A DNA stretch of 64,000 bases from an uncultured Clostridia bacterium (GTDB lineage Bacteria > Bacillota > Clostridia > TANB77 > CAG-465), in the NCBI GenBank assembly GCA_944383015.1, contig CALWOC010000002.1, positions 1-64,000 of the forward strand, given 5' to 3'. Each line of letters begins with the position of its first letter. Positions within the stretch are counted from its first letter, which is position 1. Positions 83 through 47,445 of the stretch are shown here, piece after piece. The translations under genes were made by a program, and so were the position numbers. The notes beneath the pieces are model-generated. The model had not been told where the DNA came from, did no database searches, and saw nothing but the letters and a program-made list of their open reading frames with translations.

Positions 83-101
83 ATTAAGGAGGGAAATGGT
101 T

Positions 102-491
102 ATGAATAATAAATTACCAAAAACAAAAATAGATGAAAGAACAGGAATAGAATATACTTTAGTAGGAGATTACTATATTCCTAATTTGACTATTACAAAA
201 CAAGAAAAAATAATATTAAATAAATATGGTAGAATGAGATTAAATTATTTAAAGGAGCATAAAAAAGCAGAATATTCAATAATGCTAGTTGATGGAACTT
301 TGAATAAACATTTAAAAGAAATCCAAGAAACAGCACAAGCTAGAGTGGAGCAAATAATAAATCAATTAAAGGAAAAAAGTAATCTAACAGAAGATATGAA
401 AAATACGGATATGCTTTATTGGGTGGGCATGATGAATAACTTTAAAAATGAAGCGGAAGAGATTGTATTTAAGGAAATTATATATTCATAA
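102..491 (+). CDS. tnpV: TnpV-like transposon-encoded protein
   Basis: This 129-residue protein begins MNNKLPKTKIDERTGIEYTL and has the blocks GDYYIPNLT, KYGRMRLNYLKEH and, near its end, AEEIVFKEIIYS. These agree with TnpV, a small protein of unknown role carried by Tn4451-like clostridial elements. An ATG six bases upstream (96) is in frame, but GGAGGG at 88-93 is best spaced for the ATG at 102. It stands alone here; no serine recombinase is visible, though the window starts only about 100 bases upstream. It suggests that the left side of the window belongs to a mobile element. The family match rests on remembered consensus. Confidence 0.75.
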   Translation: MNNKLPKTKIDERTGIEYTLVGDYYIPNLTITKQEKIILNKYGRMRLNYLKEHKKAEYSIMLVDGTLNKHLKEIQETAQARVEQIINQLKEKSNLTEDMKNTDMLYWVGMMNNFKNEAEEIVFKEIIYS

Positions 492-634: not shown

Positions 635-2629
635 ATGTTAGAAGATATTAAATTTCAAAGTTATTGTTGGAGTTTAGGAACCACAAGTTTCAGAGTTAAT
701 AATTTAAATTTTAAAATTGAAAGACAACTTCAAATTTTAAAAGAACTTTGGAACGAAAACCCAAATGTAAGATGGAATGGAAATAATTCAATTCAAGAAG
801 AATATTATAATAAAATGCTACAAAAAAACTTTATTACAGGTGAAGCAAATAATAAACCAAAAGATGCTAGACAAAAAACTTCAGGATTAGTACAAATTGG
901 TGTAATAGACGATAATAGACATATAACAGAAATAGGTGAAAAGATAATTGATATAGTAGAACAAGAAAATTTTAAAAGTGACAATATATTTAATATAAAT
1001 AAAGACAGCTACTTGTATCTAAAGCAATTATTAAAACTTCAAATAACTGATAATGGAATAAATGTAAAACCATTTGCAGTATTATTATATTTTCTATCAG
1101 AACTAGGATATCTAACAAAAGATGAGTTTACTTATATTTTACCATTATGTACTAATAGAGAATATATAGATATAATGTTAGAAAATATAAAAAAGTATAG
1201 AAATAATCAAAAAACAATAGAAGATATTATTCAGAATAAGATGGAAAATATGTCCAACTATAAAGCAGCAATTGATTTTATTAAAGGAAATGGAGTAAAT
1301 AGTATTGATGAATTTTCTATAATAGATATGGGAAGAAAAGGTACTAAATATGTAGAACCAATGTATAATTTCTTTGAAGCACTATATAGAATATCAAAAA
1401 AAGACTTTGATGAAGAAGCTTGTGATATAATAATAAATTTCATAAAGGAACAAACAAAGAAAAATTCTAAAGTAGCAAAATATTGGAAAGAATATCTTAG
1501 ATATTCTTCAAAGATGCTAACAGAAGAATATTTAGAAGATATTAAGGAAATACCGTTATTTAATTTTAAGAATAAAACTGAATATACAATAGAATTTTTT
1601 AAGGTAATGCATACTGCTAAATGGAAAGCCACATTAGAAGATTATGCAGATTTAAATAAAAGGTATATTTCATTATCTGACATAGTTATTTTTGAAGATG
1701 ATAAAATTGAATTAGATGTATTTCCAAAATATTTCTTTTTGAATATTTCTAAGGAAATAGTAAATACTGAAATTTTAGATAAAGATAAATACAATAACTT
1801 TATTTCAACAGATATAGAATTAAACAAAATTTATGAATGTCTAAATGTAAATGTTGATGAAATTATATATCAAATTCAAGCTGATTATCCAGATAGAGTT
1901 GTAAATAAAGATAGTATTAAGACATTTATTGAAGATGAAAAATTAAGAAGATTTAACGAATTAATTGATAATAAATTTAATGAAAATCAACTTGTTCAAT
2001 TATTTACATATATCGAAAACAACGATAGAAATGCAATTGATGAATATGTTGATTGGAATTCAGATGTTCCAACTATATTTGAATATATTTTAGGTATTAC
2101 ATGGTATAGATTTAGTAATAGAAGCGGAAATATATTGGAATATATGAAATTAAGTTTAGATGCTAATTTATTGCCTAAAACTCATGCAGCAGGAGGAACT
2201 GCTGACATAGTATATGAATATAATAAAACAAATGATTATCCAGAACATAAAGTTTTATTAGAAGCAACTCTAACAGAATCAACATCTCAAAGAAAAAGTG
2301 AAATGGAACCTGTATCAAGACATTTAATGAGAGAAATTCAAGAAAATGATAATGATGATACATATGCTGTCTTTGTTGCTAACATATTGCAAGAAGAGGT
2401 ATTAAGTGATTTTAGATCAAGAAAAAATTACCAATTTAGAGGTAAAAATTCTGTAAAAAGTGGATTAAAAATTATTTCTCTTTCTATTAGAGATATAATT
2501 AAACTAATAAATATAAAAATTCAATATTCTAAATTATATAAAATTTTTGATGAAGCTTATAAAGATACTAATATCAACGATTTAGAATGGTATGAAAAAT
2601 TAGTAAAAAATAAAATCAATAATTTATAA
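635..2629 (+). CDS. Type IIS restriction endonuclease, AlwI-like
   Basis: The 664-residue protein looks like the AlwI/N.BspD6I group of restriction enzymes, which bind an asymmetric site with an N-terminal module and cut a few bases outside it with a C-terminal module. The N-terminus has the LGTTSFRV opening and a winged-helix-like stretch at residues 20-105. The likely catalytic part is at 510-600: GGTADIVYEY, then LLEATLTESTSQRKSEMEPV, where the acidic residues and E-A-T fit a PD-(D/E)xK-like metal site. An ATG at 614 is possible, but AAGGAG at 618-623 favours 635. A methyltransferase with two catalytic halves follows directly, as expected for an asymmetric target. The exact recognition sequence (GGATC in AlwI) is not proved. 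Confidence 0.8.
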   Translation: MLEDIKFQSYCWSLGTTSFRVNNLNFKIERQLQILKELWNENPNVRWNGNNSIQEEYYNKMLQKNFITGEANNKPKDARQKTSGLVQIGVIDDNRHITEIGEKIIDIVEQENFKSDNIFNINKDSYLYLKQLLKLQITDNGINVKPFAVLLYFLSELGYLTKDEFTYILPLCTNREYIDIMLENIKKYRNNQKTIEDIIQNKMENMSNYKAAIDFIKGNGVNSIDEFSIIDMGRKGTKYVEPMYNFFEALYRISKKDFDEEACDIIINFIKEQTKKNSKVAKYWKEYLRYSSKMLTEEYLEDIKEIPLFNFKNKTEYTIEFFKVMHTAKWKATLEDYADLNKRYISLSDIVIFEDDKIELDVFPKYFFLNISKEIVNTEILDKDKYNNFISTDIELNKIYECLNVNVDEIIYQIQADYPDRVVNKDSIKTFIEDEKLRRFNELIDNKFNENQLVQLFTYIENNDRNAIDEYVDWNSDVPTIFEYILGITWYRFSNRSGNILEYMKLSLDANLLPKTHAAGGTADIVYEYNKTNDYPEHKVLLEATLTESTSQRKSEMEPVSRHLMREIQENDNDDTYAVFVANILQEEVLSDFRSRKNYQFRGKNSVKSGLKIISLSIRDIIKLINIKIQYSKLYKIFDEAYKDTNINDLEWYEKLVKNKINNL

Positions 2630-2631
2630 AA

Positions 2632-2665
2632 AAGAGTTGAAAAACTCTTTTTTTATTGTTATAAT
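2632..2665 (+). promoter_or_regulatory. Terminator of restriction gene overlapping methyltransferase promoter
   Basis: A hairpin AAGAGTT-GAAA-AACTCTT (2632-2649) followed by a T-run ends the restriction transcript. The same bases supply a -35 box, TTGAAA at 2637-2642, spaced 17 bases from TATAAT at 2660-2665. One short segment therefore stops one gene and starts the next, and lets the methyltransferase be expressed without the nuclease. Confidence 0.7.
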
Positions 2666-2706
2666 TCTAGTGTGCATTAGATGCCTAGAAAGGAAATGAT
2701 AAACAG

Positions 2707-4668
2707 ATGAGAAAGTTAGATATAAATAATAGAAGATATTTAGGAAGTAAGTATAAATTATTGAATTTTATAGAAAAGACAGTTAATGAAAATTGTAATG
2801 ATATTAAATCTGTTATAGATGTATTTGCTGGAACAGGAGTTGTAGGAGATTTATTTCTAAAAAAAGGAAAAGAGGTTTATTTTAATGACTATCTAAAATC
2901 AAATTGCTATAGTTATAAAGCTTTTTATGAACCTGTTAAAGTTGATATCAAAAAGATTGAAAATATAATAAATAAATATAATGCTATGGAAATTCATGAA
3001 GAAAATTATTTTTCACAGAACTTTAGTGATACATACTTTAGTAGTAATGATTGTAGGAAAATTGGTTATATAAGAGATGATATAGACAAAAAATATAAAG
3101 AGGGAAAAATCAATGAAAGAGAAAAAAGTGTTTTAATAACAAGCTTAATATATTCAATGGATAGAGTAGCGAATACAGTAGGACATTATGATGCTTACAG
3201 AAAAATTGAAAATATAGAAGATAAATTTTTTATGTATATGATTGATATAAATAAGAACGGAGAAACAAAATCTCACATTAGCAATGAAGATGCAAATGAG
3301 TTTATAAAAGAAGTAAAAGCTGATTTAGTTTATATTGATCCTCCATATAATTCAAGACAATATTGCGATGCATATCATTTATTGGAAAATGTTGCAGTTT
3401 GGAATAAACCACAAGTATATGGTGTTGCAAAAAAAATGGACAGGACTAATTTAAAAAGTAGGTACTGTACCAATAAAGCAGTAGAAGCTTTTGATGATTT
3501 AATTAAAAATTGTAATTGCAAATATATTTTAGTATCTTATAACAATACTGGTGACAAGTCTAATAGCAGGAGTAATGCAAAAATATCAGATTTACAAATC
3601 AAAGAAATATTAGAGAAAAAAGGAAAAGTTAAAGTATTTGAGCAATCTTATAATAATTTTACTACTGGTAAAAGTACTTCAATAGACCATAAAGAAAGAT
3701 TATTTTTATGCGAAACAGCAAAAGTTTGTGAAAAAAGTCAAATTCAATTAGAAGATAGCCATTACTTTGCAAAGTCTCCATTAAATTACACTGGGGGAAA
3801 ATATAAACTATTACCACAGTTTGAAAATATATTTCCAAAAAAAATAGATACATTTGTGGATTTCTTTTGTGGTGGTGCAAATGTTGCCGTTAATAGTAAT
3901 GCAAATAAAATAATAGCAATAGATAAAGAAACTAATTTAATTAGAATACTAGACCTTTTTAAAAACTATGATTATATGGAAATTGTCAATAAACTAGATT
4001 CAATTATCGAAAAATACAATTTAAGTAATACTTATAAAAATGGATATAAATTTTATGGAGAAAATAGTTCTTCAGGACTTGGAAAATATAATAAGCCATA
4101 CTACTTAAAATTAAGAAATGACTATAATCATATGAAAGATTCAAGTGAAAGAGATTTTATGTTTTTGACTTTAGTAATTTATGCTTTTAATCATCAAATT
4201 AGATTTAATAATAATGGCGAATATAATATGCCAGTTGGAAAAAGAGATTTTAATAGTTCAATTAGAAAGAATCTATTGGAGTTCTGTAGAAAATTAGTTG
4301 TTAAAAATATATCGTTTGTTAATGAAGATTATAAAAAATTTAAATTAGATTCATTGACTAGCAACGATTTTTGTTATTTCGATCCGCCTTATTATTTAGG
4401 AGATGCTAGTTATAATGAAAATGATGGCTGGAATGAAAATAAGGAAAAAGAATTATTAGAATATCTAAATGAAGTGGACAAACATGGGATAAAATTTGCA
4501 CTTTCAAATGTAACAGAACATAAAGGACTTAAAAATGAAATGCTAATAAATTGGGCTATAGAAAATCAATATAATATACATAATCTAAATTATAATTATA
4601 GCAATTCAAATTACCATTTGAAAAATAAAAATCAAGTTACCAAAGAAGTATTAATAACTAATTATTAG
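2707..4668 (+). CDS. Fused double N6-adenine DNA methyltransferase (D12/Dam class)
   Basis: The 653 residues hold two complete D12-type adenine methyltransferase domains in tandem. The first has GSKYKLL (about 14-20), the AdoMet motif FAGTGVVG (39-46) and the catalytic DPPY (about 211-214). The second has TGGKYKLL (about 362), FFCGGANV (about 385) and DPPY (about 559-562). In type IIS systems with asymmetric sites each strand needs its own methylase, and one fused protein can do both. Placed 77 bases after the restriction enzyme, it is the protective half of that system. The target is presumably the nuclease's site. The two halves are intact by eye. Confidence 0.87.
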   Translation: MRKLDINNRRYLGSKYKLLNFIEKTVNENCNDIKSVIDVFAGTGVVGDLFLKKGKEVYFNDYLKSNCYSYKAFYEPVKVDIKKIENIINKYNAMEIHEENYFSQNFSDTYFSSNDCRKIGYIRDDIDKKYKEGKINEREKSVLITSLIYSMDRVANTVGHYDAYRKIENIEDKFFMYMIDINKNGETKSHISNEDANEFIKEVKADLVYIDPPYNSRQYCDAYHLLENVAVWNKPQVYGVAKKMDRTNLKSRYCTNKAVEAFDDLIKNCNCKYILVSYNNTGDKSNSRSNAKISDLQIKEILEKKGKVKVFEQSYNNFTTGKSTSIDHKERLFLCETAKVCEKSQIQLEDSHYFAKSPLNYTGGKYKLLPQFENIFPKKIDTFVDFFCGGANVAVNSNANKIIAIDKETNLIRILDLFKNYDYMEIVNKLDSIIEKYNLSNTYKNGYKFYGENSSSGLGKYNKPYYLKLRNDYNHMKDSSERDFMFLTLVIYAFNHQIRFNNNGEYNMPVGKRDFNSSIRKNLLEFCRKLVVKNISFVNEDYKKFKLDSLTSNDFCYFDPPYYLGDASYNENDGWNENKEKELLEYLNEVDKHGIKFALSNVTEHKGLKNEMLINWAIENQYNIHNLNYNYSNSNYHLKNKNQVTKEVLITNY

Positions 4669-4696
4669 AATTTAATAAGGAAAGAAGGAAATAAAT

Positions 4697-7063
4697 ATGA
4701 ATTTTGGTAATATCAATAAAATAGTAGTAAATGGTAATATTTTTCAAAATAGTGAATTAATTGTTTTTCCGATTCAAAAAAATACTACTTGTAGAATATC
4801 AAATATTTATGGAAAAAATGGGAGTGGAAAGACTACAATTTCAAAAGCTATTAAAGGAAGTTCTGTAGATAAAGTAAGTATAAAATTTGAAGATTCCAAT
4901 AATAATGAAATTGTATGTGATACAAGAGAAAAAATATATGTATATGATGAAGAATTTATAGATAGTAATGTAAAAACTTCTGAAGACGGAATAAAAACTG
5001 TTATTATGCTTGGAGCACAAAAAGAATTGGATGACAAAATTATAAAATTAGAAGATGAAAAAAAGATATTAACTGATGCTGAAAAAAAACTAAAAGCAAA
5101 AATTGAAAAATTTCAGGATTCAAATAATAATATTAGCCCATTATATTTTAAGAACATAATTGAGCAAAAATTGAAAGAGGGATGGGCTACAAGAGATAAA
5201 GAAATAAAAAATAATAAAAGGAACACAGCCATTCAATTTAGTAATTTGATTACAGAAATAAATAAGATAAAAGAAGAAAAAATCAAGAAAGAAGAAATAC
5301 TTGCTCAATATTCAGAAATATTAAGTACTTATAAAAAAGCTAATAGTGGAACTGATAAAATAATGAAATCGATAGAAAAAATAACTTGCTTTTCTAAAAA
5401 TTATAAAAATACAAATGATTTATTGAAGAAAAAAGTGGAAGTTCCGGAATTTACAGCAAGAGAAAAATTAATATTAGAAAAAATAGAAAAGGGAGAACAA
5501 AAATTTTATGAAGCAGTTAGAGAGGATTTTAAAAAGGAAGATGTAAAAATTTGTCCATATTGTTTTCAAAATGTTTCTAATATTAAAAATGAAATTGTAT
5601 TAAGTATAAATAAGGTTTTAAATAAAGATGTTGAAAATCATAAAGAGGAATTAGAAGAAGAAAAGAAAAAATATACAATATTGTCCGAATTAGATAGTGA
5701 TTTTAAAATAATAGATGAGAAGTTATTTTTAGAAATAAATAATTTAATATCAAAAATAAATAGTAAGGTAAATGAAATTTATTCAATTGTAGATTATAAA
5801 ATAAATAATATATATAATCCAACTGAAGGTATAAATAATGAAGTTCTTGATTTAGAAAGAGAACTAAATATTTTGATTGATAAAATGGAAATAAAAAGAA
5901 AGGCGTTTAATTTAGCAATTGATGATAAAGAAAAAAATAAAAAGCAATTGGATAAACTTAATTTACAGATTGCGTGGTTTGAAATTAAAGAGAATTACAA
6001 ATTATATGATATTCAAGAGAAAGAGTTTGAAAAAGTTAAATTAGAGCTGAAAAAAAATGGGGAACATATTGAAACAAAGAAAAAAGAAATTACTAAATTA
6101 GAAAGTGAAAAACAAAATGTAAAAATAGCAAATGATAAAATCAATATTTTTTTGGAATATATATTTATGGCAAAAGATAAACTAAAAATAGAATATGACA
6201 ATAATAAAAAAATATATTTAATAAAGTCACATAATAAAGATATTCGACCTAAAGATTTATCAACAGGAGAAAGAAATATAATTGCCTTATGTTATTTTTT
6301 CGTAAAAATATTAGAAAATACTAGTGAGATAAATGAATTTAAAGAAGAAATTTTTATTGTATTAGACGATCCAATATCTAGTTTTGACTTAGAAAATAAA
6401 GTAGGATTATATACTTTCTTTAGAATGATGTTTAATAAAATAATGAAAAACAATAAAGAAAGTAAAATAATAAATTTTACGCATAGTCTTGAAACAATGT
6501 TTAATCTTGAAAAAATATGTTCAGACATAAAAATTAATCTTGATATAAAATATTGCCTTTTAGAATTAAAAAATTCTAAAATAGAAGAATTTTCATATAA
6601 AAAGAGAAATGATTATAAGAAAATGCTAGAAGATATATATGAATATGCTAAAATAGATGATAACACGATTGTTAATGAATTAGATGATACTATTGGAAAC
6701 ACAATGAGAAAACTATTAGAAGCATATTCAACTTTTAATTATAATAAAGGAATAGAAGAAGTAACAAGAAATGAAAACATTTTAGAAAAAATAGAAAATG
6801 AAGATGTAAAACAATATTTTGAAAATTTTATGTATAGATTAATATTGAATAATGAAAGCCATACATTTGATGAAACAAGGAGTTTGAATTTTTATGACTT
6901 TATTTCTCGTGATGAAAAAATTAAAACTGCTAAAAGTATTTTAATTTTACTTAATTTATTAGATAATACTCATTTAAAATCATACTTTGATAATGACGAT
7001 TATCTACAATATTTGCAAATTTGGGAAAATGAAATTATACCTAAAAAAAATATTGCAAATTAA
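4697..7063 (+). CDS. AAA/SMC-like ATPase with zinc hook, RloC/PrrC-like
   Basis: A 788-residue ABC/SMC-type ATPase. The Walker A motif is GKNGSGKTT (39-47), the signature LSTGERN (about 522), the Walker B FIVLDDPISSFD (about 552-563) and the switch histidine is in FTHSLE (about 595). Long charged coiled coils flank KICPYCFQN near 284-292, a CxxC zinc hook as in Rad50 and RloC. The C-terminus has RKLLE (about 671) and, 51 residues after that Arg, NESH, compatible with the R-xxx-E...H triad of PrrC/RloC anticodon nucleases. Such enzymes cleave tRNA when restriction is blocked, and this gene directly follows a restriction-modification pair, which supports that reading. RloC proteins are usually somewhat longer, so another nuclease-ATPase of the AAA_13 class remains possible. 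Confidence 0.65.
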   Translation: MNFGNINKIVVNGNIFQNSELIVFPIQKNTTCRISNIYGKNGSGKTTISKAIKGSSVDKVSIKFEDSNNNEIVCDTREKIYVYDEEFIDSNVKTSEDGIKTVIMLGAQKELDDKIIKLEDEKKILTDAEKKLKAKIEKFQDSNNNISPLYFKNIIEQKLKEGWATRDKEIKNNKRNTAIQFSNLITEINKIKEEKIKKEEILAQYSEILSTYKKANSGTDKIMKSIEKITCFSKNYKNTNDLLKKKVEVPEFTAREKLILEKIEKGEQKFYEAVREDFKKEDVKICPYCFQNVSNIKNEIVLSINKVLNKDVENHKEELEEEKKKYTILSELDSDFKIIDEKLFLEINNLISKINSKVNEIYSIVDYKINNIYNPTEGINNEVLDLERELNILIDKMEIKRKAFNLAIDDKEKNKKQLDKLNLQIAWFEIKENYKLYDIQEKEFEKVKLELKKNGEHIETKKKEITKLESEKQNVKIANDKINIFLEYIFMAKDKLKIEYDNNKKIYLIKSHNKDIRPKDLSTGERNIIALCYFFVKILENTSEINEFKEEIFIVLDDPISSFDLENKVGLYTFFRMMFNKIMKNNKESKIINFTHSLETMFNLEKICSDIKINLDIKYCLLELKNSKIEEFSYKKRNDYKKMLEDIYEYAKIDDNTIVNELDDTIGNTMRKLLEAYSTFNYNKGIEEVTRNENILEKIENEDVKQYFENFMYRLILNNESHTFDETRSLNFYDFISRDEKIKTAKSILILLNLLDNTHLKSYFDNDDYLQYLQIWENEIIPKKNIAN

Positions 7064-7123
7064 TGTTAATTATGTTAAAATCAAATCATAGAATCAAACT
7101 ATGAAATATAATTATAAATACAA

Positions 7124-7159
7124 GCTCGTATTCTTCGCGAACGGAAGTGTCAAACGAGC
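7124..7159 (+). repeat. Imperfect hairpin of unknown role between ATPase gene and prophage
   Basis: GCTCGT at 7124-7129 pairs with ACGAGC at 7154-7159, with an inner CTTC/GAAG stem and the palindrome TTCGCGAA at 7134-7141. It is GC-rich for its surroundings. It is not a tRNA (only 36 bases) and has no T-run. It lies where the left prophage junction is expected. Confidence 0.4.
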
Positions 7160-7168
7160 CAATAAAAC

Positions 7169-7215: not shown

Positions 7216-7220
7216 CTTTT

Positions 7221-7248
7221 TACCCCATTTTTACCCCTTTGGTTTTAT
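7221..7248 (+). repeat. Left copy of prophage-end repeat (int arm-type or att site)
   Basis: This 28-base stretch, ending in ACCCCTTTGGTTTTAT, matches 46531-46558 in the same orientation at 26 of 28 positions. It abuts the integrase stop codon. Each copy contains two TACCC-type direct repeats 11 bases apart, the pattern of integrase arm-binding sites. It is either the attachment core itself or an arm site close to it. Confidence 0.6.
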
Positions 7249-8454
7249 TTAAATAATAAAATCACATAATAAATTTACAATTTTTGATTTATCTTCAGGA
7301 AAACAAAATATATAATATCTTTCTGTAGTTTTTATTGAACTATGTCCTAATAATTCTTTTACTTCTATGATTTTAGCTCCTCGTCTAATAAGTGTTGTAG
7401 CAAAAGTATCTCTTATAGAATGAAATTTTTTAAATACTAAATTTATACTATCAAGAAATTTAGCCCATTTTTTAGAAAAGTTACTTGTTTCAAAAGGTGT
7501 ACAAGCACTAGTAGTAAATATTAAACTTTCACTATTAAATTTCAATCCTAATTTTTTATACTTTTCAATCTGTTCAATAAAATATTGCTTTAGAATTGGT
7601 TTTAATGTTTCTGGAAAGGGAATTTCTCTAATTGATGATTTTGTTTTAGGTGTAGTTAATTTTAATACACGTTTATGTGTTTTATTTTCATCAAATACTT
7701 TTACTAATTTTAATGTATTTACAACTTTTATAGTACATTTATCTAAATTTATATATTTTCTTTTTAGACCAAGTAATTCTCCCTTTCTTAGACCTGTAAC
7801 TAAATCCAACTGAATAGCTACATTTAAAGTATTATCTTGATCATTTTTATATTGTATATTATTTTTAATAATTTCTAATTCCTCATCATTAAATACTGTT
7901 ATATTGTCTTCATTTTCTAACTCATCTTCAAATCCATCTGCGTTTCCTGGTATTTGAATTTTAGTTAAAGAACATGGATTATCAAGAATAATATGTTCAC
8001 TTATACAGTAGTTAAAAAATTTTCTTAAAGTTTTATTAATATCATAAATTTTTTTAGAAGATAATTCTTTTTTTACAAATAAGTCATTATAATACAACTG
8101 AATAGGATGTGACGATATATTATAAAGTCTTAATTGACCAATAGGACTATTTTTTATATAAAGCCTATAGTTTGTCTCATGTTTATCAAAACTCGCTGAT
8201 TTTGTATTTTTGGACGTATATAGTACATCCCATAACCACTTATGCATAAAAACTTCTAATGACAGATTTTCATTTCCGACTTCTAGCCCAGAGTTAATTC
8301 GAGTAAAGTATTCATCTATTTTTCTATCGGCATCTTTTTCACCGTCACCGTAGAAGTATTTAATTTTTGGTTTGCCATTAATATCATATCCAACCGTTTT
8401 TCGTTTTCTAAAATATTTTTTACCATTTATTTCACAATTATATTTTTTTGCCAC
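7249..8454 (-). CDS. int: Tyrosine-type site-specific integrase
   Basis: A 401-residue tyrosine recombinase. An AP2-like arm-binding N-terminus (YFRKRKTVGYDINGKPK) is followed by a SAM-like core-binding domain (about 55-165) and the catalytic domain, with Arg in TGLRKGELLG, HSIR, the histidine of LLGHSSIKTT and the tyrosine of ERYY. It inserts and, with an excisionase, removes the prophage. An upstream TTG (8472) is in frame, but GGAG and an 8-base gap point to GTG at 8454. It is transcribed outward at the left end of the prophage, the usual place next to an attachment site. Confidence 0.93.
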   Translation of the reverse strand: MAKKYNCEINGKKYFRKRKTVGYDINGKPKIKYFYGDGEKDADRKIDEYFTRINSGLEVGNENLSLEVFMHKWLWDVLYTSKNTKSASFDKHETNYRLYIKNSPIGQLRLYNISSHPIQLYYNDLFVKKELSSKKIYDINKTLRKFFNYCISEHIILDNPCSLTKIQIPGNADGFEDELENEDNITVFNDEELEIIKNNIQYKNDQDNTLNVAIQLDLVTGLRKGELLGLKRKYINLDKCTIKVVNTLKLVKVFDENKTHKRVLKLTTPKTKSSIREIPFPETLKPILKQYFIEQIEKYKKLGLKFNSESLIFTTSACTPFETSNFSKKWAKFLDSINLVFKKFHSIRDTFATTLIRRGAKIIEVKELLGHSSIKTTERYYIFCFPEDKSKIVNLLCDFII

Positions 8455-32385: not shown

Positions 32386-33714
32386 ATGAGTATCAGGAAG
32401 TTAAAGTTAAAATCTAAAGCAAAAAAGGTTATTCGTATTAAAAATTTAAGTAGAAAAAAATTAAGAAAAGTTCTTAAGTATAGAAACAAAAAAAATAAAA
32501 ATATGTATGTAAAGTATTTCACTAAATATAAAAAAAGAAAACGAACAGAGTTAAGTAGAATATTTAGATTATTAGATTATAAAAAATTTTATAAAAAGCC
32601 AAGTATACTTGTAAATGGAACAGCTATTATACAAATACCTGAAATTTTTTGTTTTTCTAAAAATGCATATGAAACTATTGATATAATAAAAGAAGTTGCA
32701 TATGCATGTAAAAATAATCTTAATATAATAATAGATCATTCTAAATGTCAATATTTAGATTTGGGAGCTTCTACAGTTATGGATGTTCTTATAATGGAAT
32801 ATAAGGCAAAGATTAAAGTGTTACGAATGCATAAAAGTATAAGAGGGAAACTTTCTGAAAATACAAAAGTAAATGATATATTGAAGTTTAGTGGTATAGT
32901 TAAGCATTTAGGTTTGAATAAAGATTTATCAAATGAACTAGAACTATTATCATTAAAAAAGAATGAAAAGCCTGGAGCGTTATCTACTGAAATAATAGAA
33001 TATTATCAAAGATGTTTAGCAACGAAAGGTCTAGAATTGACAGAACAAGGTGAATTATTTTTTGGAGATATGTTAGGAGAGGTGCTAACAAATTGTAAAG
33101 ATCATGGTGGAGAAAATTCACAATGGTATGCAATGGGACATTACATTACTAAAGAGGGAAATATAAGTCTAATAATTTTTAACTTTGGTCAAACAATATT
33201 TGAAGGATTGAACAATAAAATGACATCAGAAGAGACAGTAAGAGATTTAGAAAATCTTACTAATAGACATATAAAATTATTTGACACAAAGTGGAATAAA
33301 GAGACATTATGGACTCTATATGCATTGCAAAGTGGTGTAAGTAGATTGAAATCTAAGGAAGATCCAACTAGAGGTACTGGAACAATAAAAATGATTGATG
33401 GTTTTCAGACTCTTGGTAAAAAGATAGATGGGGATGGTAATAAGTTAAATCCTATAATGAGTATTACATCTGGTAATGTTAATATAGTTTTTGATGGAAC
33501 ATATAATTTAAAAGAAGAACATGTTGATGGCGGAGTTAGAAAGATAATTGCATTTAACAAAGAAAATGATTTATATAAGTTACCAGATGAAAAATATGTA
33601 AAAAATATAAAAAATTACTTTCCAGGAACAATAATAACTATGAATTTTTATATTGACAATAAGTATATAGATTTGATGAAAAAGGAGAATAATAATGAAA
33701 GAGATGATAATTAG
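32386..33714 (+). CDS. STAS-like plus GHKL ATPase protein of a three-gene cassette
   Basis: 442 residues. The first 65 are very basic (KLKLKSKAKKVIRIKNLSRK). Residues about 75-195 look STAS-like: IIIDHSKCQYLDLGASTVMD then a helix. Residues about 220-400 fit a GHKL ATPase of the anti-sigma-kinase kind: N-box LGEVLTNCKDHGG (about 233), a G1-like IIFNFGQTIF (about 265) and a G2-like RGTGTIKMIDGF (about 325). Kinase and STAS partners make up Bacillus-type partner switches. The protein lies in the middle of tail genes, on its own promoter, and overlaps the next gene by 20 bases. I know no described phage system with this set of three genes. Confidence 0.72.
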   Translation: MSIRKLKLKSKAKKVIRIKNLSRKKLRKVLKYRNKKNKNMYVKYFTKYKKRKRTELSRIFRLLDYKKFYKKPSILVNGTAIIQIPEIFCFSKNAYETIDIIKEVAYACKNNLNIIIDHSKCQYLDLGASTVMDVLIMEYKAKIKVLRMHKSIRGKLSENTKVNDILKFSGIVKHLGLNKDLSNELELLSLKKNEKPGALSTEIIEYYQRCLATKGLELTEQGELFFGDMLGEVLTNCKDHGGENSQWYAMGHYITKEGNISLIIFNFGQTIFEGLNNKMTSEETVRDLENLTNRHIKLFDTKWNKETLWTLYALQSGVSRLKSKEDPTRGTGTIKMIDGFQTLGKKIDGDGNKLNPIMSITSGNVNIVFDGTYNLKEEHVDGGVRKIIAFNKENDLYKLPDEKYVKNIKNYFPGTIITMNFYIDNKYIDLMKKENNNERDDN

Positions 33715-34030
33715 TTTGCAAAAATATAGAGCAAATGGAGAGAAAATACTCACAGGAAGAGATGAAGGGAAAAGAGTAAGAGAAACTTTAAAACTAGACA
33801 AGTTGGATAATGAAGATATAACAATAACTATAGATATTCCAAGTGATATTTTGTCATTAAATTCATCATATTTTTTAGGATTATTTCAAAAAAGCATTAT
33901 ATCTTTAGGTGAAGAACAATTTAGAAAAAAGTATATTTTTAAATGTGAGAGAAAATCAATAATTGATATAAATGTTGAAGATGGCATACAAGAAGCATTA
34001 AACAATGCTAATGCTTTAGGGGGAAAATAA
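33695..34030 (+). CDS. DUF4325/STAS-like small protein
   Basis: 111 residues. The pattern GRDEGKRVRETL, then ITITIDIPSDILSLNSSYFLGLFQKSIISLG, fits the STAS-like DUF4325 family, often found next to ATP-binding proteins. A serine pair (SLNSSYF) sits where anti-anti-sigma factors are phosphorylated. It starts inside the end of the ATPase gene and shares its last base with the next start, so the three are translated together. A binding partner of the upstream ATPase is the natural inference. Confidence 0.68.
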   Translation: MKEMIISLQKYRANGEKILTGRDEGKRVRETLKLDKLDNEDITITIDIPSDILSLNSSYFLGLFQKSIISLGEEQFRKKYIFKCERKSIIDINVEDGIQEALNNANALGGK

Positions 34031-34632
34031 TGAAAAAATGGTTTATATATGGAGGTTCTCTAGTATTAATTATTTTTTTAAATATATTGGCATTAACTAA
34101 ATTTAAAAATACCACATTTGAAGATAAAATTTCTTTGATAAATACTATATATATTATTGTAATATATTTTACCGATAAAATTATCGAAAAATTTGATGAA
34201 AAGAATGATAATAAAAAATATTGGTTTAAAAATTTTATATTAGAAAAGTATATATATGATTATTGTGGTTTTTTTGAATCTGGAGCTGATATTTTAAGAG
34301 AAGCAAGTAATAAAAAAAATAAATATGTTGAAGGAAATATGGGAGTAAAAGATTTAAAAAAAATGTCTGAAAAATCTCAACAGGAGTTATTTGATAAATT
34401 TTCATTAATAAAAAGAAGAATTACATCTATAAATGCATTTATACAAATTTATGATAATAATATTTATTTTGAGGTTCAAAAAGTTATTGAAGAGTATCAA
34501 AATAAATTTACAGAAATGCTTGAAAATCAACTTAATAATGTTAGTGATAATATAGAAAAAGATATAATTGAAGTATATGAATTTCAAAGAAATTTATTAG
34601 AGATTTTTTATAAGCATTCCATAAATTTATAA
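34030..34632 (+). CDS. Membrane protein, third gene of the cassette
   Basis: 200 residues. Two transmembrane helices at about 4-23 (WFIYGGSLVLIIFLNILAL) and 34-50 are followed by a cytoplasmic helical domain (about 60-200) with a coiled coil (VIEEYQNKFTEMLENQLNNV). No enzyme motif is visible. As the last gene of a switch-like operon it could be the membrane effector or the sensor. It follows with a one-base TAATG overlap after GGGGG. Confidence 0.62.
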   Translation: MKKWFIYGGSLVLIIFLNILALTKFKNTTFEDKISLINTIYIIVIYFTDKIIEKFDEKNDNKKYWFKNFILEKYIYDYCGFFESGADILREASNKKNKYVEGNMGVKDLKKMSEKSQQELFDKFSLIKRRITSINAFIQIYDNNIYFEVQKVIEEYQNKFTEMLENQLNNVSDNIEKDIIEVYEFQRNLLEIFYKHSINL

Positions 34633-45275: not shown

Positions 45276-45306
45276 TTCGTATATTGTTATGAAAGGAAGT
45301 GAAATT

Positions 45307-45801
45307 ATGTTTAGTGCACAAGATATAGCAAAATGGTTTTTATATAAAAATAATTCAAAGCAAAAAGAAAATATTGCTATAAATGATGACTATGAAGTTT
45401 ATGAAGGTATAACTCATCTTAAATTACAAAAATTATTATATAATGCACAGGGAGTATTTTTGGCTTTAGAAGATAAAAAATTGTTTGAAGAACCTTTAGA
45501 AGCATGGGAACATGGTCCAGTAGTAAGAGATGTGTATGAAACATATTGTGTATTTGGAAGAGCTCCAATTATTATCCCTTCAACGAAAGAAAATAATGAA
45601 GTTGTAGACGAAATAGAAAGAAATGAAAAAGTAAAGAACATTTTGGAATTTGTTTATGATAATTTTGCTATTTACACAGCTTGGCAACTAAGAGAAATGT
45701 CACATGTTAAAGGTGGCCCTTGGGATCAGACAATTAGAAATGAAGAAATTGATACTGAAGTAATAAAAGATTATTTTAGGAAAGAAGTTGTAGCAGTTTA
45801 A
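45307..45801 (+). CDS. Panacea-domain (DUF4065/SocA-like) antitoxin
   Basis: 164 residues. The Panacea pattern is clear: ITHLKLQKLLYNAQGVFLAL (about 37), LEAWEHGPVVRDVYETY (about 65) and WQLREMSHVKGGPWDQTI (about 120). These domains act as broad antitoxins that neutralise many unrelated toxins coded next to them; some serve in phage defence or as proteolytic adaptors (SocA). AAGGAAGTG sets the start. The next gene begins in a TAATG overlap. Confidence 0.85.
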   Translation: MFSAQDIAKWFLYKNNSKQKENIAINDDYEVYEGITHLKLQKLLYNAQGVFLALEDKKLFEEPLEAWEHGPVVRDVYETYCVFGRAPIIIPSTKENNEVVDEIERNEKVKNILEFVYDNFAIYTAWQLREMSHVKGGPWDQTIRNEEIDTEVIKDYFRKEVVAV

Positions 45802-46208
45802 TGCCAAGATTAAAAAATCAAAATAAAAAAATTAGTATAAAAGAATGCACTAGTTGTTTTAAATCAAATAATATAATTTTTAATTTTGCTTATATAGTTT
45901 ATGATGACGATTTAGATGATAATGCAAAAAGAACTTTAATAGACAGACTTCGTGAAGTGTCAAGTGTAAATTATTTGGAACTAACTAGATGGCCAAGGGA
46001 AAAAGGGTTTGAAGAAGTCAAAGTTAATATATCAAAAGAAATTCCCAGAAACTTTTTAAATGAGATTGGTGCTTTTGATGGAAAATATTCTATTATGCGT
46101 TTGTATAAGAATAATGAACCAACACCAGGTAGAATAATAGGAAAGCTTATTAATAAAATATTTTATATATTTTATATAGATGTTAAAGGAAATTTATATA
46201 ATCATTAA
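45801..46208 (+). CDS. Putative toxin partner of the Panacea antitoxin
   Basis: 135 residues. A basic start (MPRLKNQNKKISIKECTSCF) leads to an alpha-beta core with YDDDLDDNAKRTLIDRL and the end GRIIGKLINKIFYIFYIDVK, then GNLYNH. The final aspartate and histidine could be part of a nuclease-like site. It does not match a toxin family I can name. Its role follows from one-base overlap with a Panacea gene. Confidence 0.6.
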   Translation: MPRLKNQNKKISIKECTSCFKSNNIIFNFAYIVYDDDLDDNAKRTLIDRLREVSSVNYLELTRWPREKGFEEVKVNISKEIPRNFLNEIGAFDGKYSIMRLYKNNEPTPGRIIGKLINKIFYIFYIDVKGNLYNH

Positions 46209-46528: not shown

Positions 46529-46530
46529 AT

Positions 46531-46558
46531 TACCCTTTTTTTACCCCTTTGGTTTTAT
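46531..46558 (+). repeat. Right copy of prophage-end repeat
   Basis: Matches 7221-7248 in direct orientation at 26 of 28 positions. It starts three bases after the ribbon-helix-helix gene and lies about 90 bases before the tRNA fragment. Confidence 0.6.
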
Positions 46559-46650
46559 ATAGTTATGCATAGTTTTGAATAGATTTAATATTGAAGCACA
46601 CTATTTTCAAAGGTTACAGAAGTTTTTATCAAATTATAAGAGGTTTGTTT

Positions 46651-46694
46651 TTAACCGAAGGGTCGTAGGTTCGAGCCCTACTTGAGGAGCCAAA
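46651..46694 (+). other. 3' half of a tRNA-Asn gene, probable attR scar
   Basis: These 44 bases (TTAACCGAAGGG... to GGAGCCAAA) equal the anticodon loop-to-CCA half of the complete tRNA-Asn at 47371. The match stops in the anticodon loop, a typical crossover point for tyrosine integrases. For a + strand tRNA, the partial copy marks the right end of an element whose left end carries the restored gene. That gene is not in the window, so the element extends left of position 1 or its left end was lost. Confidence 0.75.
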
Positions 46695-47370: not shown

Positions 47371-47445
47371 TCCTCAATAGCTCAGCGGTAGAGCATTCGG
47401 CTGTTAACCGAAGGGTCGTAGGTTCGAGCCCTACTTGAGGAGCCA
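47371..47445 (+). tRNA. tRNA-Asn (GTT)
   Basis: Acceptor stem TCCTCAA/TTGAGGA, D-stem GCTC/GAGC, anticodon stem TTCGG/CCGAA with loop CTGTTAA (anticodon GTT), T-stem GTAGG/CCTAC with TTCGAGC, discriminator G and encoded CCA. All arms pair, so the gene is intact. Its 3' half is duplicated at 46651. Confidence 0.95.

Follow-up and report, generated by a model that had tools for sequence, protein, structure and literature searches.

Must a protein that guards a restriction system touch the restriction enzyme, or need it only sense what that enzyme produces? The notion of a restriction guard is well established (PMC12707154), and the guards PrrC, RloC and PARIS are known chiefly as companions of multi-subunit type I enzymes. 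A compact system in which to ask the question is found in an uncultured Clostridia bacterium (assembly GCA_944383015.1), on contig CALWOC010000002.1, of which we analyzed the first 64,000 nucleotides (hereafter, the window). Three intact genes lie on one strand at window positions 635-2629, 2707-4668 and 4697-7063, and their identities and motifs show that they form a type IIS restriction-modification (R-M) pair plus an RloC-type gene, in a pairing that is conserved and in a slot whose occupant can be exchanged. On balance, we favor the interpretation that this is a three-gene defense cassette, carried by an integrative mobilizable element, in which the RloC-type protein provides a second line behind type IIS restriction.

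The first gene (635..2629, forward strand, as for the other parts of the cassette and its carrier given below) encodes an AlwI-family (type IIS) restriction endonuclease of 664 amino acids (aa), which covers positions 1-440 of the 441 in the RE_AlwI profile (PF09491, E 7e-61) and matches the PADLOC model REase_II (E 4e-25). Its reading frame is open from 614, and the start is assigned to the conserved ATG at 635: homologues begin with MLEDIKFQSYCW or MLDDIKFQSYCW, and a start at 614 would add 7 residues that are missing in most of them. The second gene (2707..4668) encodes a fused double N6-adenine methyltransferase of 653 aa, in which two D12/Dam-type domains (M1, residues ~1-340, and the Dam-like M2, residues ~355-653) share a single chain that has DPPY motifs at positions 211 and 559. 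PF02086 is matched twice, the PADLOC model for type II methyltransferases (MTase_II) with an E value of 2e-203, and the second half matches TIGR00571 (dam) as well as DNA adenine methylases of solved structure (best E 2e-34). The pair thus has two features of AlwI-family type IIS R-M, a PF09491 endonuclease and the two adenine methylase domains suited to an asymmetric site, and resembles AlwI/SfaNI-type systems such as Cal02329 of Caldicellulosiruptor (GATGC/GCATC), in which an endonuclease of the AlwI family is likewise accompanied by two adenine methylase activities (PMC9799307). Unlike in those systems, the methylases of the window are fused and the methylase is followed by an extra predicted guard gene.

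That extra gene (4697..7063) encodes an ABC ATPase of 788 aa (PF13166, AAA_13, E 7e-48; PADLOC PDC-S06) with a zinc hook and a C-terminal predicted anticodon-nuclease triad of the HEPN type. RloC has been defined by ABC motifs that include a switch His, a CXXC hook in a coiled-coil insert, the signature R-X3-E-X36-52-H, often with a Ser preceding the His, and a length of 658-897 aa (PMC2610378), and at the level of sequence every one of these features is present here. A motif scan places the Walker A motif GKNGSGKT at residues 39-46 (4811..4834), the ABC signature LSTGER at 521-526 (6257..6274), the Walker B/D-loop DDPISSFD at 557-564 (6365..6388) and the switch His in a TH at 595-596. The zinc-hook CPYC (residues 286-289; 5552..5563), which is invariant, is flanked in the structure model by two helical stretches, with long helices on either side between residues 108 and 489. 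The putative catalytic triad that the initial, sequence-only reading had proposed was borne out by motif scan, alignment and the published signature as R671-KLL-E675-X46-S721-H722 (6707..6862). When nine RloC-like C-termini with identities as low as 20% are aligned, just eight columns show no variation, and R671, E675, S721 and H722 are among them, which argues that the triad is more than a chance match. Every member of the subfamily to which the window's ATPase belongs (RloC-A) carries both CPYC and R-x3-E-x46-SH, and the x46 spacing is constant in all of them and in a 31% identical relative. The ratio of nonsynonymous to synonymous substitution rates between the window and two homologous modules (G072 and G095) is 0.12 for the endonuclease, 0.05 for the methylase and 0.14 for the ATPase, the last value indicating purifying selection on a maintained gene.

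The window's ATPase therefore shares with the RloC proteins of Geobacillus kaustophilus and Acinetobacter baylyi its size class, a Rad50-like split ABC ATPase, the CxxC hook and R-x3-E-...-SH (PMC2610378); unlike published RloC genes, for which linkages are rare and involve type I or III loci, it occupies a slot behind a type IIS methylase. With PrrC of the EcoprrI system it has in common an anticodon-nuclease triad joined to an ABC ATPase beside a restriction system, and the logic of a guard of restriction. PrrC, however, has ~340-416 aa, lacks the zinc hook and always occurs in linkage with type Ic systems (PMC2610378, PMC3874168), whereas the protein analyzed here has 788 aa and a hook and is linked to AlwI-type genes. 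An AlphaFold2 model of the ATPase (34-sequence alignment; alignments A8 and A10 were left out because they misplaced the catalytic His) reached a mean predicted local distance difference test (pLDDT) score of 70. As a whole it resembles Rad50, SMC heads, LmuB of Lamassu and AriA of PARIS; the latter two, which it resembles in the head, belong to systems with SMC/ABC ATPase sensors, and PARIS also guards restriction and cuts tRNA. LmuB and AriA rely on separate effectors (LmuA and AriB), whereas sensor and predicted nuclease are here in one chain. Residues 636-779 are modelled as all-helical, as HEPN domains are, at low confidence (pLDDT ~35-70; 51 for the isolated domain). No HEPN structure of the PDB figures among the structural matches listed for this low-confidence model, and a sequence search of solved structures gave no useful match to RloC or PrrC.

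Is the association with type IIS genes a property of the subfamily or an accident of one genome? Of 287 genomes of the order, three (G000, the window's own, G072 and G095) contain a close homologue of the ATPase, which in all three comes immediately after an AlwI/methylase pair, and four of the five RloC-A members found in the order have AlwI-type restriction genes as neighbors, with the same operon order in three cases and a rearranged one in the fourth. In the rearranged locus (G664; RloC-A 52% identical) the order is methylase, endonuclease, RloC and the endonuclease, of 593 aa, belongs to another AlwI-family lineage; the linkage has been kept. A distant, classical RloC (G726; 25% identity, PDC-S06 E 5e-155) also sits beside another AlwI and methylase module. 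In a sample of 390 genomes from the related family, 13 genomes have the methylase and three have RloC-A, and in two of the latter both genes belong to one operon; the sharing of genomes alone has P=0.003, and adjacency is far less likely still. Finally, 199 genomes of the order yielded five strong AAA_13 matches: three, the window's own among them, are linked to AlwI genes, a fourth is a pseudogene linked to DUF1016, and the contig of the fifth has recoded TGA. Taken together, this census presents RloC in the order as a gene that keeps company with restriction-type genes, in most cases of type IIS; the pairing of RloC-A with type IIS is real, if not exclusive. As to the recoded contig (L131, G120:C32), its AAA_13 gene contains 20 in-frame TGA codons and the frames are open if TGA is read as an amino acid; it probably belongs to a recoded organism and was wrongly binned.

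These results uphold the adjacency of an AlwI-like nuclease, a fused double adenine methylase and a zinc-hook AAA ATPase on which the sequence-only reading was built, and also the co-conservation of the ATPase with type IIS genes. Its premise that PrrC and RloC usually accompany type I enzymes holds for PrrC and fails for RloC, which was found at type I or III loci in only 8 of 72 cases (PMC2610378). Likewise, the type IIS linkage that it regarded as a different pairing is indeed conserved, but constitutes an extension rather than a break, given that ABC-HEPN proteins have been noted earlier in diverse R-M operons (PMC3710099). In the open-access literature searched we found no paper that pairs RloC with a type IIS enzyme or describes the slot.

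The position behind the methylase is exchangeable, the methylase being constant while both the endonuclease and the slot gene vary. The clearest case is a cassette (G183) with an endonuclease 99% and a methylase 97% identical to those of the window and a different third gene, encoding an 867-aa, AAA_13-like zinc-hook ABC ATPase devoid of the R-E-H triad (L035, 92-2695, reverse strand), perhaps a different effector. DNA similarity with the window ends at window position 4702 and returns at 7045, which amounts to an exact swap between gene ends. In other modules the slot holds a 217-aa unknown protein (G039), a GmrSD_N protein (G696, with a different AlwI-family endonuclease) or a PDC-S53-type helicase (G058 and G700), while a Tmn protein lies behind the endonuclease in G169 and the Hachiman pair HamA/HamB beside it in G580. 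A 217-aa protein with no family match, encoded in the slot behind the methylase on L036 (10984-11637, forward strand), is a candidate new defense effector. A conserved 356-aa protein, in its L071 copy also devoid of a family match, is encoded between the methylase and the slot gene in modules with different effectors (L071 5156-6226, L072 11314-12384).

Two aspects of this arrangement are, to judge from the literature searched, new: a predicted unit of methylase and slot gene, set off by a hairpin, and a pentanucleotide in the methylase leader. Directly 3' of the endonuclease gene lies a terminator-like hairpin, AAAGAGTT-GAAA-AACTCTTT followed by a T run (2631..2654). Six modules have it unchanged, G696 has it almost unchanged and G058 has a variant of it; an automatic scan missed it because it has only 2 G-C pairs. 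It overlaps the -35 box of a TG-extended predicted promoter for the methylase and slot gene (TTGAAA-17-TATAAT, 2637..2665), which matches the consensus at 11 of 12 positions, is the joint best of the region and is conserved in relatives. Given hairpin, promoter placement and the gap of just 28 bp between the methylase and RloC genes, the latter is predicted to be co-transcribed with the methylase and not with the endonuclease, the two genes forming one transcription unit. Comparison of leaders revealed GATGC between the -10 box and the ribosome-binding site (2680..2684). It recurs downstream of the -10 box in all 13 leaders, twice in three of them, with methylases 56-100% identical and promoters that are partly different; shuffling puts the chance of GATGC in one leader at ~2-4%, the leaders being related to one another. 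In Caldicellulosiruptor, an AlwI-family-linked system methylates GATGC/GCATC (PMC9799307), and LlaJI, which likewise recognizes an asymmetric sequence of 5 bp, carries sites of its own within its promoter (PMC1459862). It is hence plausible that GATGC is the system's own recognition site, and its presence in every leader suggests feedback control of the system by itself, a testable hypothesis on both counts. Site avoidance is only suggestive: the adjacent prophage contains 27 GATGC against 47.6 expected (rank 5 of 399), whereas the chromosome shows no depletion (27 against 26.2 expected). As evidence of specificity this depletion is weak, CATCC being more depleted. GGATC, the true AlwI site, gave neither a leader nor a depletion signal as a candidate target.

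How, then, might the cassette operate? As a first line, the AlwI-family enzyme would cut foreign DNA beside an asymmetric 5-bp site, while the fused methylase would protect host sites on both strands. The RloC-type protein, as occupant of an exchangeable guard slot, would be kept inactive by its own Rad50-like ATPase and zinc hook until DNA ends, or the collapse of the restriction system, trigger it; such ends could be supplied by type IIS cutting, or by phage attack on host DNA once restriction fails. Its R-E-H site would then cut tRNA anticodon loops, stopping translation and aborting infection. Cleavage and triggering are here postulated by analogy with characterized RloC, which excises the wobble nucleotide (PMC2610378, PMC3874168) and becomes active in response to double-strand breaks and linear DNA with no need of R-M proteins (PMC3874168). 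The opening question would thus be answered in favor of sensing, since the endonuclease differs between the window and G664 and RloC-A is kept, which favors DNA ends over a specific endonuclease contact; contact with the methylase is possible. Functional coupling to the type IIS enzyme is something that we only infer.

Several observations weigh against this second-line interpretation. The genomes compared were sampled, through capped searches, and are mostly drafts with incomplete or cut contigs. The RloC-A of G718 (59% identical) and the more distant relatives L067 and L068 lie outside AlwI modules; in G718 the gene overlaps by 4 bp a DUF1016/YhcG nuclease gene, which comes first, at a contig start, and in that genome, 83% complete, no HsdS that would indicate a type I partner was found. 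Two attempts at modelling left the C-terminus at a confidence too low for calling its fold, and we know of no RloC-A member that has been assayed. Most AlwI/methylase modules have something other than RloC behind the methylase or beside the pair, and in the 97-99% identical G183 cassette RloC has been swapped out. Restriction evidently works without RloC, and the role of second line when restriction is blocked, as first proposed, becomes one model among several.

The strongest competitor, which we regard as possible though clearly less probable, is that the RloC-type gene is a neighbor and not a partner, an independent defense gene that happens to lie in a hot spot following a mobile R-M cassette, acts by itself and is tied to the type IIS enzyme neither by regulation nor physically. 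The variety of genes in the slot and its surroundings (Tmn, Hachiman, GmrSD_N, the PDC-S53 helicase, another ABC ATPase, the 217-aa unknown) and the exact swap in G183 are what it would lead one to expect, and the RloC of A. baylyi does not need its R-M system for activation by breaks (PMC3874168). It fits less well with the near-confinement of RloC-A in the order to the vicinity of AlwI-type genes, across 52% identity and despite rearrangement, and with its predicted place in the methylase transcription unit. A more ambitious scheme, which we hold to be rather doubtful, would make the locus a standard guard slot, any occupant of which is co-transcribed with the methylase, so that the cell's methylation state, read through the leader GATGC, sets the expression of methylase and guard, and RloC and other break- or failure-sensing effectors act as interchangeable monitors. 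We deem it unlikely that the protein serves addiction, being activated by residual endonuclease breaks so as to punish loss or failure of the methylase and to stabilize the element more than to fight phage: the carrier is mobile, with relaxase and TnpV genes, and both predicted co-transcription with the methylase and the leader GATGC would suit such a role, but R-M alone already gives post-segregational killing, and the genes that take its place represent known or candidate anti-phage systems, which speaks for defense. That the tRNase function has been lost in favor of a Rad50/LmuB-like DNA-end binder, which aids the restriction enzyme or degrades DNA with a host nuclease, is very improbable, for while the whole-model matches, the low C-terminal confidence and the triad-less replacement in G183 would agree with it, the invariance of R, E, S and H and the constant x46 spacing would not.

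Returning to the second-line cassette, its carrier is an integrative mobilizable element, separate from the adjacent prophage. A TnpV-family gene (96..491; PF14198, E 2e-38) lies upstream of the cassette, as it does on L034, L036 and L079. Still farther upstream, L034 and L079 have a Mob_Pre relaxase, and on L034 the relaxase gene is in turn preceded by a tRNA-Asn (127-201). The junctions of the window, L033 and L034 define a conserved right end (...GGAAGTG..AAACGAGCCA, 7064..7167), beyond which the flanking DNA is not the same from host to host. To the right, the prophage comes with an integrase of its own and with att-like repeats of 32 bp (7220-7251 and 46530-46561). We rejected the cassette as prophage cargo: relatives carry it without an adjacent prophage, on L034 it runs into chromosomal genes, and the carrier ends at ~7167, before the prophage integrase and att-like repeats. 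A viral origin of the cassette is likewise unsupported, with no close relative in the phages or viral contigs searched.

Some minor observations may be added. At the right end of the prophage (45295-46208), a SocA/Panacea antitoxin gene with an unknown gene for 135 aa behind it is likely a toxin-antitoxin pair, and a three-gene insert among the tail genes (32386-34632), devoid of Pfam matches, is a candidate for prophage cargo. The 3' half of tRNA-Asn is repeated upstream of the intact gene (46651-46694 and 47371-47445), a scar left by the integration of an element; contig C4 has a similar tRNA-Asn at its end. Viral contigs (L095-L124) contain a large clade of zinc-hook ABC proteins that keep RRILEYYF and have a C-terminal QHY in place of the usual SH, and in L087 a protein of this clade is followed by a GmrSD protein.

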